Source: Caldilineaceae bacterium (GTDB taxonomy: Bacteria; Chloroflexota; Anaerolineae; Caldilineales; Caldilineaceae). From it: 43,456 nucleotides of DNA. Under the pieces are notes generated by a model that saw nothing but the letters and a program-made list of their open reading frames with translations, ran no database searches and was not told the DNA's origin. Within the stretch, counting starts at the first letter, position 1. Each line of letters opens with the position of its first letter. The stretch is taken from positions 1-43,456 of the forward strand of contig JALSIX010000130.1 in NCBI GenBank assembly GCA_026989655.1, written 5' to 3'. Made by a program: the position numbers and the translations under genes. This document shows positions 12,323 through 43,456 of this stretch, piece by piece.

Positions 12323-13414
12323 TTAGGGGATGGCCTCGGCCCGCACGTACTGGAGGGGCCCCACCTGGCGGACCAGTCCCTTGAGCTCCATCACGGTGAG
12401 CAGGCTGTTGACCTCGGCCGGGCTCAGGGCTGCGGCCCGGACCAGTTCGTCCACGTGGCGGGGTTCCTGGTCCAGGTGTGCCAGCAGGCTGGCCTCGGCC
12501 GGCTCGGGCGGGATGAGCTCCCGGGCCTGCTGTTGGGCCGCCTGGCGCTCCACCCGGAGTTGCTCCAGGAGTTCCTCCGGCGAGAGGAGCGGGCACGCGC
12601 CCTGTTGGATGAGCCGGTTGCAGCCCAAGCTGCTGGGGCTGAAGATGGAGCCGGGGACCGCGAAGACCTCCCGGCCCTGGTCCGCGGCGAACTCCGCGGT
12701 GATCCGGGCGCCGCTGCGCTCGCCGGCCTCCACCACCACCACGGCCAGGCTGAGGCCGCTGATGATCCGGTTGCGTGGGGGGAAGTTGGCGGCCTCGGCC
12801 CGGGTCCCCAGGGGGTACTCGCTGATCAGGGCGCCCTGGGCGGCCACCCGGAGGGCCAGGCCTCGGTTCCGGGCCGGGTAGATCTGGTCCACGCCGCTTC
12901 CCAGGACGGCCAAGGTACGGCCCCCCGCGTCCAGGGCGGCCTGGTGGGCGACGGTGTCGATGCCCAGGGCCAGCCCGCTGACCACGGTGACCCGGTGATG
13001 GGCCAGCTCTCGGGCCAGGGTCTCGGCCACCTGACGGCCGTAGGCCGAGGCCCGCCGGGTCCCCACCAGGGCCACGGCCACCTCGTCCTGGGGTGTCAGC
13101 TCTCCCTGGATGTACAGGACCGGAGGGGGGTGGGGGATCTGGCGCAGGCGGGCTGGGTACGCGGGATCGTCCCAGGTCAGGACCTGGACCCCGGCCTGGC
13201 GCACCCGTTCCAGCTCTGCCTGGGGATCCACCTGGCCTCGAAGGGCCATCAGGTTCTCCAGGCTGCGGCGGTCCAGGCCGGCCTGGCGCAGGGTGGACAG
13301 AGGGGCCTCCCACGCGGCCTGGATGGAGCCACACAGCTCCAGCAGGGCGGCCAGACGGGCCGGGCCGATGCCGGGCACTCGATTGAACGCGATCCAGTAG
13401 GCTTTCTCGTCCAC
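12323..13414 (-). CDS. dprA: DNA-processing protein DprA
   Basis: A 363-residue DprA/Smf protein, which binds incoming single-stranded DNA and loads RecA during natural transformation. A helix-hairpin-helix-like start (AFNRVPGIGPARLAALLE) is followed by the Rossmann-type core with VALVGTRRASAYGR, SGLALGIDTVAHQAAL, VLGSGVDQIYPARN and EFAADQGREVFAVPGS, all classic. A C-terminal winged-helix (DML1-like) domain, EPRHVDELVRAAALSPAEV, completes the full-length form. The start taken is GTG at 13414; there is no Shine-Dalgarno sequence, but upstream translation is arginine/proline-rich and lacks alternatives. It lies 77 bases after rimM and probably belongs to the ffh operon. Confidence 0.9.
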   Translation of the reverse strand: MDEKAYWIAFNRVPGIGPARLAALLELCGSIQAAWEAPLSTLRQAGLDRRSLENLMALRGQVDPQAELERVRQAGVQVLTWDDPAYPARLRQIPHPPPVLYIQGELTPQDEVAVALVGTRRASAYGRQVAETLARELAHHRVTVVSGLALGIDTVAHQAALDAGGRTLAVLGSGVDQIYPARNRGLALRVAAQGALISEYPLGTRAEAANFPPRNRIISGLSLAVVVVEAGERSGARITAEFAADQGREVFAVPGSIFSPSSLGCNRLIQQGACPLLSPEELLEQLRVERQAAQQQARELIPPEPAEASLLAHLDQEPRHVDELVRAAALSPAEVNSLLTVMELKGLVRQVGPLQYVRAEAIP

Positions 13415-13491
13415 AGGGCGCGCGGGATGGCAGGGCGACGGGCCGCGATGGCGGCAACGGGCGATCTCGAGGAGGCCCGGGCAGGGGTGGG

Positions 13492-14094
13492 CTATGTGGG
13501 CTCCGGGCTCTCCTCCAGGAGCCCCGGCATCAGGCGAACCGTGAGCACCCGGGCCTGGATGTCCACGGATCGGACGACCTGGGCGATGGCGGGGATGAGG
13601 AGCTCCCGGCCCCGGTTGATCCCAGGGGCCGGTCGCACCACGTAGACATCGTTGGCCCCGGTGACGATGACATCCACCAGCTCGCCCAAGACCTGGCCCT
13701 CCTCTGTGCGTACCTCCAGCCCCAGGAGCTGGTGGATATAGTAGGTGTCCTCCGCCAGTTCCTGGGCGGCTTCCTCCGGGATGTAGAGCCATTCCCCCTG
13801 CAGGGCCTCGGCCCCGGTCCGATCCTGGATCCCGTGGAAGCGGACCAGCATCTGGCCCTGGTGGGGACGGGAGGCCGCGATGGTCACCGGCTCCAGGTTC
13901 GGGCCCAGGAGGAGGGATTGGCCCGGGGCGAAACGTTCTGGGAAGTCCGTGTGGAGCTGGACCTTCACCTCGCCCCGGAGGCCGTGGGGCCGCAGGATCC
14001 GCCCCACGGCCAGGTGGCCTTCGGGGACCGGCGGCTCTCGTCGCTGCCGGAGGTATCTACGGTGTCCGCGGGGCTTGTTCGGTGCCACGGTCAA
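13492..14094 (-). CDS. rimM: Ribosome maturation factor RimM
   Basis: A 200-residue 30S maturation factor that binds S19 and helps form the head of the small subunit. The N-terminal RimM domain starts at VGRILRPHGLRGEVKV and runs through the FPERF strand; the C-terminal PRC-barrel includes YYIHQLLGLEVRTEEGQ and VPAI-like LLIPAIAQVV. Length is slightly above the usual 165-180 because of an N-terminal basic extension. The start is uncertain: a TTG at 14094 has GAGAGG upstream, and a GTG at 14088 is in frame two codons later. The gene follows khpA by 13 bases. Placement beside rpsP and ffh matches the widely conserved rpsP-rimM-trmD neighbourhood, though trmD and rplS are not in this window. Confidence 0.93.
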   Translation of the reverse strand: MTVAPNKPRGHRRYLRQRREPPVPEGHLAVGRILRPHGLRGEVKVQLHTDFPERFAPGQSLLLGPNLEPVTIAASRPHQGQMLVRFHGIQDRTGAEALQGEWLYIPEEAAQELAEDTYYIHQLLGLEVRTEEGQVLGELVDVIVTGANDVYVVRPAPGINRGRELLIPAIAQVVRSVDIQARVLTVRLMPGLLEESPEPT

Positions 14095-39926: not shown

Positions 39927-42900
39927 TCAGAGGAGACGGAGCTGCAGATCCTCTGGGCGAGGTCTGCGGGGGCTTGTTCCCCCGCGAACGGCCCGCAGGC
40001 CCTCCTCGATCTCCTCCACGAACCGGGAGATGGCGGGGTGTACCGTGCGGCCGAAGAGCCGTCTTCGGCGGGCATGGGTCAGGATAGCCGCCTCCCGGGC
40101 CCGGGTCAGGGCCACGTAGAAGAGGCGGCGCTCTTCCGGGACGCGCTCTTTTGCCTCCTCATCCGGACGATAGGGAAGCACTCCCTCCTCGCATCCCACC
40201 AGGAACACCACCGGGAACTCCAATCCCTTGGCCGCGTGGATGCTCATCAGCGCCACCCGATCGGCCCGGGGATCGTAGGCGTCGGTGTCCCGCTCCAGGG
40301 CCAGGGTTTCCAGGAATTCCCGGGTACGGGGGCCGAAGGGCTCGGCCCGGAGACACAGCCGCTCCAGGGCCTGTTGGGCCGCGTCCTCCAGGCCGTTGGG
40401 GAAGAGCTGGGCCGCGAGCTGCCGGAGCTGCTGGCTCACCGGGAGGGCCTGCCCTTTTGGCTGCTGGACCAGCCTGGCCAGTCGGGTGCCGGCCTCCTGG
40501 AGCTCCGGAGGCCAGGGAAATTCGTGTAGCGATGTTGGGGGCGTGCGGGCCAGCCGGGAGGCGAGAGCTCCGCGGCTCGATTCCGGCAGTTGGGGGAGGG
40601 CATGGGCCAGCAGCGCCTGCCAGTGGAGCGGAGATGCCGGCGTGGCCTGGAGCCAGAGCAGGGCCAGCAGAGGGCGCAGGGCCTCGGGGCGGGCACGGTC
40701 CCGGCGCACCACCTGGTAGGGGATCCCAGAGCGGGCAAAGGCCTCCTCCAGCGGGGCCGCCAGGGCGTTCATCCGGTAGAGGACCGCGAAATCTCCGAAG
40801 GAACGGTTGACCCCCTCGCTGCTCTCCACCCGACCGGAGTCCAAGGAGAAGTAGCTGGTGCCGCCCACCATCTGCTCGATGCGGTGGACCACGTACTCTG
40901 CCTCGGCCCGCTCGGTGGGGGCGGGGTGGACCTCCAGCTTCACCTCCTGGGTGAACTGGGACCAGAGACGGAGGGACTCCCGATCCGGGTTGTGGGCGAT
41001 CACCTGTTGGGCGGCATCCAGGATGGCCTGGGCAGAGCGGTAGCTCTGGGTGAGCTGGACCCGGTGGGCGTCGGGGTAGTCCTCCTGAAAGCGGAGGAAG
41101 AAGCGATGATCGGCTCCTCGGAAGCCGTAGATGGCCTGGTCCGGGTCGCCGATGACGCAGAGGTTGGCTCCACCTGCGGCCAGCAGCCGGAGCAGCCGAT
41201 ACTGGGCTGGGTTCACGTCCTGGTATTCGTCCACGGAGATCCATCGGTATCGGCCGTGGATGGCCTCTTGGGCCGGCAGGTGATGTTCCAGCAGGTGCAC
41301 CGAGTAGACCACCAGGTCATCGAAGTCCAGGGCTCGGGCCTCCTGCAGCGCTTCCTGGTATCGGGCATAGTCCGCTCGAAACCCCGGCTCCTGGTCGTCG
41401 GAGATGGCCCCTGGGGTGTTGGGAAGCTGGAGCCGGGCCTTGGCCCAGGAGATCCGCTCCAGGAGTCGGTCCACCTGGGGGCGGGATCGGTTCGGGAAGG
41501 CGGCTTGGGCCAGCTCGCGCCGTTCCTGTTCGTCCAGGATGACGAAGTGGGGGGACAGGTCCAGGGCCTGGGCCCACTCTCGCACCAGGCCCGCGCCCAG
41601 GGCGTGGAAGGTGCTCACCGTGACCTGGGCAGCCACCTGGGGTTCCAACAGGCCGGCCAGGCGCTCTCGCATCTCCTCCGCGGCCTTGACCGTGAAGGTG
41701 ATGGCCAGGATCTGTTCCGGCGGCACCTGCCGGTCCAGGATCAGGTGGGCGATGCGCACGGTGAGGGTACGGGTCTTGCCCGTGCCCGGCCCGGCCACGA
41801 TGACCAGGGGCCGGTCTGTGCACAGGACCGCCTCCTGCTGTTCCGGATTGAGCTGTTCCCACCAGGCATGGAGCGGATGCGTGTGGGAGGCGTCCAGGCG
41901 CTCTGGCCTCCGCGCCCTGGGGAGCTCTTCGGAAGGAGATGCTCCTGGAGGCCAGGTGTCCACCGGCTTCGGGCGGGCTGAGGGGTGGCCTGAGGTCGGG
42001 GAGGTCGCGGTGGGCTCCTGGGCCTGAGGAACGTGGAAGAGTCCGGCCTGAAAGGAGCGGGTCAGCTCGTCCTCCTGGAAGAGACGCACCACCCCATACT
42101 CGCCATCGTAGCCGGCCTGGGCAACCACCTGGCCCGTGCGCATCCGGCGGATGGCCTCGGCCAGCAGGGGGCCGCCGGCCCGCCGGATCTCCTCCAAGGG
42201 CACGTCCATGAGAATGGCCAGCTCGGGACCCAGACGGTCCAGCAGGGAGGCGTATTCCCGGCGGATCCGTTTGCTGCCGGCACCCACCCGGTGGATCTCG
42301 GCCAGGACCTCGGGCAGGGGGATGAGGCTGTGGAAGGGCCGGGCCCGGGAGGGGCGTGCTCCCGGCGGCCGGTCGGCCAGTTCCTCCACTCGGTGCATCA
42401 CGCCCACGGTGACGGGTTTGGCGCAGACCGGGCAGCGGCCCCGGTGCTCTCGGGTGACGGTGGGCTCCCAGCGGACACCGCACTTGCGGTGGCCGTCGTA
42501 GTGGTACTTCCCCTCCTCTGGGAAGAACTCCACCGTGCCCAGGAAGGTGTTCGGATCGCCGCTGCGCATGGCCTGGTACAGGGCGGAGTAGCTCAGCTCG
42601 GTGTCGAAGAGGGTGGCCTCCCGGGCCAGCTTCCCCGGCGAATGGGCATCCGAGTTGGAGACCAGGGTGTAGCGATCCAGGCTGGAGACCCGCCAGTTCA
42701 TGGGCGGATCCGAGGAGAGGCCGGTCTCCAGGGCAAAGATATGGGCCGCGAGGTCGCCGAAACACTCCTCCACCGAGTCGAAGCCGGACTTGGAGCCCAG
42801 GAGGGCGAACCAGGGCGTCCAGATGTGGGCGGGGATCAGATAGCCCTGCTCGTCGGTCTCCAGGACGATCTCCAGCAGATCTCGGGAATCCAGGCCCAGG

Positions 42901-43316
42901 ATGGGGCGGCCATCGGCCCGGATGTTGCCGATGGTTTCCAGCCGCTGCTGGAAGCGGCGCACCGCGTCCAGGTGGGGCAGGAAGACCACGTGGTGGATCT
43001 TACGGACCTTTCCACCCCGTTTGTAGATGTTGCTGATCTCCCCGGCCAGGAGAAAGCGGACCGGGGCCCGACAGGCCCGGGGTGTCTCCTGGGCCACCGA
43101 GTGCTCCAGGTCATCCCGAAGGCGGTAGAGCCCCTCCTCTGCGGGGACCAGGTGTTCCTCCATTTCGGCCAGCCAGCCGGGATGGGCGATGTCGCCGGTC
43201 CCCACCACCTGGACACCTTTGAGCTGGGCCCAGCGGGCCAGGTGGGGGAAGGTGAGGTCCTTGCTGGTGGCCCGGGAGTAGTGGGAGTGGATGTGCAGAT
43301 CCGCGACCAGTTTCAT
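39927..43316 (-). CDS. Endonuclease Q-type PHP nuclease fused to a UvrD/PcrA helicase
   Basis: A 1129-residue fusion. Residues 1-425 match endonuclease Q (TIGR00375-type PHP proteins): DLHIHSHYSRATSKD (His8, His10), VGTGDIAHPGW (Asp42), Glu93 (AGEIS), HHVVFLPHLDAV, PAHIWTPWF (His164) and NSDAHSPGK (Asp223, His225) supply the PHP metal site. Next comes a zinc ribbon with His276, Cys279, Cys295 and Cys298, then VGVMHRVEELADR. Archaeal EndoQ nicks 5' to uracil, hypoxanthine and abasic sites. After a Pro/Ser-rich linker (430-480) comes a complete SF1A helicase: GPGTGKT (509-515), VDEYQD, GDPDQAIYGFRGA, QSYRS, SIHAAKGLEFPVVFLVG and LFYVALTRARE. The combination implies nick-and-unwind repair of deaminated DNA. 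The ATG at 43316 begins the PHP domain; it follows an upstream gene by seven bases. Confidence 0.9.
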   Translation of the reverse strand: MKLVADLHIHSHYSRATSKDLTFPHLARWAQLKGVQVVGTGDIAHPGWLAEMEEHLVPAEEGLYRLRDDLEHSVAQETPRACRAPVRFLLAGEISNIYKRGGKVRKIHHVVFLPHLDAVRRFQQRLETIGNIRADGRPILGLDSRDLLEIVLETDEQGYLIPAHIWTPWFALLGSKSGFDSVEECFGDLAAHIFALETGLSSDPPMNWRVSSLDRYTLVSNSDAHSPGKLAREATLFDTELSYSALYQAMRSGDPNTFLGTVEFFPEEGKYHYDGHRKCGVRWEPTVTREHRGRCPVCAKPVTVGVMHRVEELADRPPGARPSRARPFHSLIPLPEVLAEIHRVGAGSKRIRREYASLLDRLGPELAILMDVPLEEIRRAGGPLLAEAIRRMRTGQVVAQAGYDGEYGVVRLFQEDELTRSFQAGLFHVPQAQEPTATSPTSGHPSARPKPVDTWPPGASPSEELPRARRPERLDASHTHPLHAWWEQLNPEQQEAVLCTDRPLVIVAGPGTGKTRTLTVRIAHLILDRQVPPEQILAITFTVKAAEEMRERLAGLLEPQVAAQVTVSTFHALGAGLVREWAQALDLSPHFVILDEQERRELAQAAFPNRSRPQVDRLLERISWAKARLQLPNTPGAISDDQEPGFRADYARYQEALQEARALDFDDLVVYSVHLLEHHLPAQEAIHGRYRWISVDEYQDVNPAQYRLLRLLAAGGANLCVIGDPDQAIYGFRGADHRFFLRFQEDYPDAHRVQLTQSYRSAQAILDAAQQVIAHNPDRESLRLWSQFTQEVKLEVHPAPTERAEAEYVVHRIEQMVGGTSYFSLDSGRVESSEGVNRSFGDFAVLYRMNALAAPLEEAFARSGIPYQVVRRDRARPEALRPLLALLWLQATPASPLHWQALLAHALPQLPESSRGALASRLARTPPTSLHEFPWPPELQEAGTRLARLVQQPKGQALPVSQQLRQLAAQLFPNGLEDAAQQALERLCLRAEPFGPRTREFLETLALERDTDAYDPRADRVALMSIHAAKGLEFPVVFLVGCEEGVLPYRPDEEAKERVPEERRLFYVALTRAREAAILTHARRRRLFGRTVHPAISRFVEEIEEGLRAVRGGTSPRRPRPEDLQLRLL

Positions 43317-43323
43317 GGGGCTT

Positions 43324-43456
43324 TCACTCGATGGAGATGGTGAGGGTGTAGGTGGAGGTGCCCTGGGGGCGGGCCACGGTGATGCGGTAGTCCTGGGTGG
43401 AGGGGAGGACGAAGCGGAAGGAGCGGTCCTCGTTTTCCAGGCGTTTGAAGGGGATG
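43324..43456 (-). CDS. C-terminal end of an unknown beta-rich protein
   Basis: The last 44 codons of a gene entering from the right edge. The readable end includes FKRLENEDRSFRFVLP and ends in YTLTISIE before TGA. The alternating pattern resembles the final strands of a secreted beta-sandwich domain, such as those at the C-terminus of extracellular enzymes. Nothing more can be said from the fragment. Its stop lies seven bases before the EndoQ-UvrD ATG, so the two genes are probably co-transcribed. Confidence 0.6.
   Translation of the reverse strand, partial: IPFKRLENEDRSFRFVLPSTQDYRITVARPQGTSTYTLTISIE

Follow-up and report, generated by a model that had tools for sequence, protein, structure and literature searches.

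Endonuclease Q joined to a UvrD/PcrA-type helicase in a bacterial protein with clamp-type peptides

We have studied a gene of Caldilineaceae bacterium (Chloroflexota), located in a stretch of 43,456 nucleotides of DNA (assembly GCA_026989655.1, contig JALSIX010000130.1) that we refer to as the window. The gene occupies positions 39927-43316 of the minus strand as a single unbroken frame with its ATG at 43316, and encodes a protein of 1129 amino acids, P0001. The frame, together with profile and sequence matches, confirms that P0001 is endonuclease Q (EndoQ; residues 1-415) joined to a UvrD/PcrA-type helicase (residues 482-1112). This fusion is widespread among bacteria. It carries short peptides that look like handles for binding the β sliding clamp, DnaN, and the evidence leans towards an enzyme that would be tethered to the clamp and would incise and unwind DNA in the repair of deaminated or abasic sites.

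Both halves belong to known families, and their combination with clamp-type peptides appears to be undescribed. We found no description of an EndoQ-helicase fusion in the open-access literature, most subscription journals, preprints and supplements being outside the scope of that search.

Results

The two halves of P0001

A preliminary description of this DNA, made from its sequence, recognised hallmark blocks of EndoQ in the N-terminal part of the protein. All of these blocks (DLHIHSHYSRATSKD, VGTGDI, HxxC...CxxC and VMHRVEELADR) are found in P0001, and residues 1-420 taken alone match P. furiosus EndoQ (PfuEndoQ) with E = 7.8e-55 (5zb8; also 7k30 and 7k31), which bears out the assignment. 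The EndoQ part (42072-43316, minus strand) gave zero family matches in a Pfam scan of P0001. We class it as EndoQ by its structure and its residues, as a diverged relative, despite a TIGR00375 score below the curated cut-off.

The structure of P0001 was predicted with AlphaFold2 from an alignment of 74 rows, giving a mean predicted local distance difference test (pLDDT) of 88.3 and a predicted template-modelling score (pTM) of 0.62, with residues 424-479 below a pLDDT of 50. The comparison with archaeal EndoQ that had been suggested earlier gave a clear match. Using VIA-align, residues 1-425 of the model align with PfuEndoQ 5zb8_B with Z = 47.7 (388 residues aligned, root mean square deviation (rmsd) 2.4, 33% identity), and residues 482-1116 align with D. 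radiodurans UvrD 4c30_D with Z = 46.3 (600 residues aligned, rmsd 2.5). The best Foldseek rows concur with these matches. Between the two halves lies a linker (residues 428-479; 41880-42035, minus strand), within the low-confidence stretch.

The zinc ligands of PfuEndoQ are Glu76, His84 and His139, whose change to Ala abolishes activity, and T and A are kept out of the enzyme by His139, Gly169 and Ser171, according to PMC8307549. The D192A form of MacEndoQ is an inactive mutant modelled on a residue essential in P. furiosus (PMC6202378); we take this residue to be D193 of PfuEndoQ, where the 7k30 and 7k31 chains have N. The equivalents of PfuEndoQ E76, H84, H139, G169, S171 and D193 are identical in all 92 sequences of an EndoQ alignment made up of P0001 and 91 relatives, whether fused, split or cut (L106, L110, L111, L139 and L070, the last too short, are excluded). 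The counterparts in P0001 are E93, H108, H164 and D223 for the metal site and G199 and S201 for the base-excluding pocket, and both sets are conserved. The four candidate ligands of the putative zinc ribbon (H276-x2-C279 ... C295-x2-C298; 42423-42491, minus strand) are also kept, the first being His in 90 of the 92 sequences and Cys in two, as it is in PfuEndoQ. Two alphaproteobacterial fusions that lie outside the alignment, L106 and L111, have DxQxH in place of DxHxH in their EndoQ part, with Q for H8.

The helicase half (39981-41873, minus strand) matches UvrD/PcrA over residues 487-1109, with E = 3.9e-75 for PF00580, 2.3e-38 for PF13361 and 5.8e-93 for PcrA 1pjr. The SF1A motifs were earlier said to be intact, and the residues Q493, G513-K514-T515, D696-E697, G723-D724-Q727, R848, H1027-K1030-G1031-E1033, R1064 and T1071-R1072 are indeed invariant across 74 rows. 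We take them to represent motifs Q, I, II, III, IV, V and VI.

Distribution of the fusion

EndoQ matches were found in 41 of 100 relatives, comprising 36 of 46 genomes of the same family (including that of the window) and 5 of the 54 from elsewhere in the class. An open frame of at least 994 residues is present in 38 of these 41, three of them single-contig genomes (G031, G038 and G043); the remaining three (G030, G076 and G094) have short or broken frames. In a sample of the phylum, TIGR00375 matches 6 of 301 genomes. Four of the six belong to one genus, and their frames cannot hold a helicase since they have only 414-482 residues.

A scan of a genome collection returned at least 589 confirmed relatives, of which the best 80 were analysed. 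Similar fusions had been thought possible in the preliminary description. In 70 of the best 80 relatives the helicase motifs lie in the same frame as EndoQ (68 of 79 by short patterns, with L116 and L139 then added), and these fusions are spread over 13 named phyla, as taken from the record titles, with titles reading 'Deltaproteobacteria' placed, unsurely, under Myxococcota. They include named isolates, one with a complete genome among them (Desulfonema magnum, L116, and the actinomycetes L095, L129, L130 and L142). The fusion is not an artefact of assembly, since it recurs in long open frames of relatives, in single-contig genomes and in named isolates.

The unfused cases among the best 80 are of several kinds. 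In four Omnitrophota (L091, L093, L104 and L126) a separate helicase gene lies downstream, about 0.9 kb away in L093. In L109 the helicase overlaps in another frame, possibly through a frameshift; the EndoQ frame is cut by the contig end in L070 and ends close to it in L110; in L121 EndoQ is followed by another frame; and a helicase after EndoQ was not found within the loci L122 and L141.

Warm habitats, in which cytosine deaminates faster, had been offered as the setting to which such an enzyme is suited. The fused relatives include the mesophilic termite-gut Endomicrobiellum, Gastranaerophilales, Saccharopolyspora and Desulfonema, and this distribution does not support adaptation to warm habitats.

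Clamp-type peptides after EndoQ and at the C terminus

The bacterial clamp consensus is Q-L-x-L-F, frequently placed at the C terminus (PMC4549789). Of 68 complete fusions, 61 have a clamp-type peptide at their end when a strict pattern is applied and 65 when a loose one is used, compared with none of 21 PcrA proteins of the same bacterial family (9 of 30 PcrA loci were not parsed) and with 0.4% (strict) and 2.4% (loose) of shuffled sequences. Fusions cut by contig ends were left out of this count, as were eight lacking the motif V pattern (L055, L075, L097, L099, L100, L115, L129 and L142); six of the eight, all but L055 and L099, have a clamp-like peptide at their end. In P0001 the C-terminal peptide is QLRLL (residues 1125-1129; 39930-39944, minus strand).

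Of 74 fusions, 44 have a second clamp-type peptide after the EndoQ fold, compared with 2.96 expected; it is QAGLF in P0001 (residues 423-427; 42036-42050, minus strand). Its position is closely constrained, being exactly 15 residues past a DGxYG-type anchor in 38 of the 44. Rows mostly without it are planctomycete, actinomycete, alphaproteobacterial and melainabacterial. Both peptides of P0001 lie in or beside stretches of low confidence in the model.

The separate EndoQ of Omnitrophota ends in a clamp-type peptide, at a spacing of 16 in L091 and of 15 in L126, with 15 in L110 also; the spacing is 15 in L093 and L104 too, counted from their tails. Because the split EndoQ ends with the peptide at the same spacing, the internal peptide of the fusions corresponds to EndoQ's own terminal peptide. 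Where the end of the separate helicase can be read (L091, L093 and L126, and also L109), it too carries a clamp-type peptide. Shiraishi and colleagues found that TkoEndoQ binds PCNA via a C-terminal PIP-box with KD = 55 nM, and noted that bacterial EndoQ homologues have clamp-type motifs at their C termini (PMC4858679). We extend their remark here to the fusions and to the end of the helicase. From their sequences and placing, we take the peptides to be probable handles for DnaN, and the genome of the window has a dnaN gene.

The helicase half is distinct from PcrA

P0001 scores 454 bits with TIGR01073, the PcrA equivalog model, whose cut-off is 911. Its match to the PcrA model stops at position 636 of 725, while a separate PcrA encoded on contig C132 of the same genome (839 bits) reaches 725. 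The same holds more generally: the PcrA-model matches of the listed fusion frames end at or before 667, and those of the 30 best PcrA rows extend to 720-725. The missing C-terminal end is, we assume, the Tudor domain that binds RNA polymerase (in part after PMC7585439 and PMC8318588).

The fusions also differ within the helicase. The sequence RG[IL][GS], the GIG motif of subdomain 2B, is present in 2 of 74 fusions and in all 20 PcrA spans (one of the 21 PcrA proteins had no span). Between the GIG region and motif V the median length is 157 residues in the fusions versus 207 in PcrA, the left ends being set by slightly different marks. In P0001 the stretch from residue 866 to motif V at 1027 (40236-40721, minus strand), which contains subdomain 2B, is correspondingly short and lacks RGIG. 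Many fusions have an insert like VGGTSYFSLDSGRV, with variants, which in P0001 occupies residues 817-830 (40827-40868, minus strand) and is typical of the fusion helicase group; its FSxDSGR pattern occurs in none of the 21 PcrA proteins. Contacts of 2B with the duplex, including those of the GIG motif, are autoinhibitory, and removing or rotating 2B activates the helicase (2026 review, PMC13238157). Since these contacts are autoinhibitory, the absence of GIG suggests a monomer that may be easily activated.

A quick tree of the helicases places the fused and split helicases on one side and four PcrA proteins on the other, with a support of 100. By these sequence comparisons the helicase half is a specialised type, distinct from PcrA. 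We reject the idea that it serves as the housekeeping PcrA: that enzyme has its own gene elsewhere in the genome, and the tree sets the helicases of the fusions apart from it.

Fused and split forms

In a quick tree of EndoQ, the split Omnitrophota genes are nested within groups of fused ones, and the tree has eight or more changes between the fused and unfused states; long branches are joined at PfuEndoQ, 19 of 58 inner branches are open, and some genes counted as unfused may be broken by a frameshift or a contig end. The split Omnitrophota helicases have the same KSB1, Latescibacterota and Fibrobacteres neighbours in the helicase tree. It seems that the two halves share one line of inheritance, and the two forms may have arisen by fission in Omnitrophota or by repeated fusion.

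Genomic setting

Neighbouring genes were displayed for 27 chosen loci of delta-proteobacterial type and clustered over 97 loci. In ten loci of delta-proteobacterial type a gene of a DnaN cluster lies upstream on the opposite strand; nine of these loci also have a gene of a GyrB cluster, and seven an RdgC-like gene. The cluster names are supported by Pfam for one member each (DNA_pol3_beta, DNA_gyraseB and, weakly at 28 vs 25 bits, RdgC). The RdgC-like gene and a second gene adjoin the fusion in L077, L081, L086, L099, L117, L118, L119, L120 and L136; the single scanned member of the second gene (L119:4582-5103) had zero Pfam matches. A search for conserved neighbours in Chloroflexota yielded, in clusters of at least five loci, only ABC-transporter ATPase-like and short-chain dehydrogenase-like genes, as judged by eye.

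In the window, another frame on the same strand (43324-43455, minus strand) stops seven bases before the ATG of the fusion. Its visible end is IPFKRLENEDRSFRFVLPSTQDYRITVARPQGTSTYTLTISIE, and it is cut by the end of the window. The frame is a possible operon partner because its stop lies so close to the start codon. Elsewhere in the window there is a DprA-type gene with a winged helix (12323-13792, minus strand), and the further frames scanned include ABC-transport genes, pyruvate:ferredoxin oxidoreductase, a GGDEF/EAL regulator, an amidase and a short-chain dehydrogenase.

The preliminary description noted that EndoQ needs no glycosylase. As a stand-in for missing base excision repair this does not hold in the genome of the window, which has two UDG-family matches, EndoV and Nfo (Xth was not searched for). 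A UDG-superfamily match in the same genome, G000:C118:41993-42514 (locus L064), lies within an open frame of 537 residues, longer than the usual UDG.

Discussion

A proposed course of repair

We propose that the EndoQ part recognises uracil, hypoxanthine or abasic sites and would make a nick immediately 5′ of the lesion. Attached by its flexible linker, the UvrD part would load at the nick onto the undamaged strand and move 3′ to 5′, so displacing the lesion-bearing strand as a 5′ flap. The peptides after the EndoQ part and at the C terminus would bind the β clamp, holding the enzyme on replicated DNA close to the new 3′ end, where a polymerase on the clamp could begin resynthesis. Lesion nicking, unwinding, clamp binding and the order of these steps are inferred from sequence, polarity and anatomy. 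EndoQ nicks 5′ of the lesion (PMC8307549), and UvrD-family monomers travel 3′ to 5′ on single strands (PMC13238157); in combination, a helicase on the intact strand would displace the damaged strand and leave a 3′ end. The peeling off of the damaged strand suggested in the preliminary description would thus have the right polarity. That description had missed the clamp-type peptides, the split form, the dnaN neighbourhood of some lineages, the loss of the PcrA end and of GIG, and the breadth of the distribution.

We put it somewhat above even that the protein is a clamp-tethered repair enzyme that incises and unwinds at deaminated or abasic sites. A number of observations weigh against this. 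Among the 74 fusions 30 have no internal peptide, 7 of 68 do not end in the strict C-terminal form, and QAGLF and QLRLL of P0001 both depart from QLxLF. The DnaN cluster is found in 10 of the 97 clustered loci, none of them from Chloroflexota, the other 87 lying outside it. The match of P0001 to TIGR00375 (E = 2.7e-45, 155.4 bits) is below the curated cut-off of 326.6. Given its low pTM, the model does not fix where the two halves lie relative to each other. Lastly, 10 of the 46 same-family genomes, several of them incomplete, have no EndoQ match, from which the fusion is not essential everywhere.

The fusion might nick and unwind damaged DNA with no clamp, its peptides being incidental or meant for another partner. 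All of the evidence on EndoQ and UvrD fits this, as do the fusions that lack one or other peptide. It does not account for the abundance of the C-terminal peptide (61 of 68, against 0 of 21 in PcrA and 0.4% in shuffles), the fixed spacing of the internal one, its C-terminal place in split EndoQ, or the DnaN cluster in ten loci, and we consider it rather unlikely.

A clamp-held enzyme could also act on nascent strands, with EndoQ nicking the new strand at misincorporated dU and so providing entry for UvrD, in order mainly to mark and clear new strands, for example for mismatch repair. Such a role would suit the clamp-type peptides, and also the presence of DnaN and GyrB genes close by in some lineages. 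However, MutL is above cut-off in 44 and MutS1 in 42 of the 46 same-family genomes, which rules out a stand-in for mismatch repair in this family; a helper role would be compatible with this, but we regard this processing of new strands as improbable. We think it just as improbable that the EndoQ part now acts on a different lesion or structure, making the protein a nuclease-helicase of unknown target. Its 33% identity to archaeal EndoQ, its low TIGR00375 score and the His in place of the first zinc Cys in 90 of 92 sequences could be read in this way, but the metal-site and pocket residues are identical throughout the 92, including the G and S that, together with His139, exclude T and A in PfuEndoQ (PMC8307549).

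Anti-phage defence, for instance against phages with uracil-DNA, has in its favour generic GajB model matches of the helicase half and the mention in a review of a possible antiviral role of Bacillus EndoQ (PMC8307549), but it is very improbable: in the 25 best of 52 PADLOC rows the matches are confined to the helicase half, which scores 454 bits with PcrA against 284 with GajB (in different libraries), the setting where conserved is dnaN/gyrB, the EndoQ part matched none of the PHROGs families, and none of 72,556 plasmid records covers 80% of the fusion.

Relation to known systems

The EndoQ half resembles PfuEndoQ, TkoEndoQ, MacEndoQ and Bacillus pumilus EndoQ in sequence and fold over residues 1-415, in its metal-site and pocket residues and in the clamp-type peptide after the fold. 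The known enzymes stand alone, whereas EndoQ in the fusion is continued by a helicase, has His for its first zinc Cys and has had its peptide made internal. With UvrD/PcrA helicases of SF1A the fusion shares the motifs and a full-length match of fold, but it has EndoQ at its N terminus, a conserved insert and a clamp-type end, and lacks the PcrA C-terminal end and, mostly, GIG. In nucleotide excision repair by UvrABC and UvrD, incision is followed by removal of the strand by the UvrD helicase, to which the fusion bears a likeness; unlike that system, it would be expected to make a single 5′ incision at small base lesions, with the helicase in the same polypeptide. Archaeal repair by EndoQ and PCNA likewise holds a lesion-nicking enzyme on a sliding clamp (PMC4858679), but the fusion would use the bacterial β clamp and has its helicase built in.

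It is a bolder suggestion, which we make tentatively and would not yet favour, that the fusion represents a widespread, undescribed bacterial route of excision repair, in which one protein would recognise deaminated bases and combine 5′ incision free of glycosylase with unwinding on the β clamp. It would be the replication-coupled counterpart of transcription-coupled PcrA/UvrD, with the tether to RNA polymerase replaced by one to the clamp and the inhibitory GIG contact lost, such that the monomer may be active alone.

The fusion proteins are presumably annotated merely as UvrD-type helicases, and for this reason are easily overlooked. How bacterial EndoQ is coupled to later repair can be approached directly by assays of binding, nicking and unwinding, given the split form, the clamp-type peptides that are shared and the dnaN setting. 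The incision of a lesion and the removal of the strand in one polypeptide would constitute a shortcut around glycosylase-dependent repair, present in many phyla.

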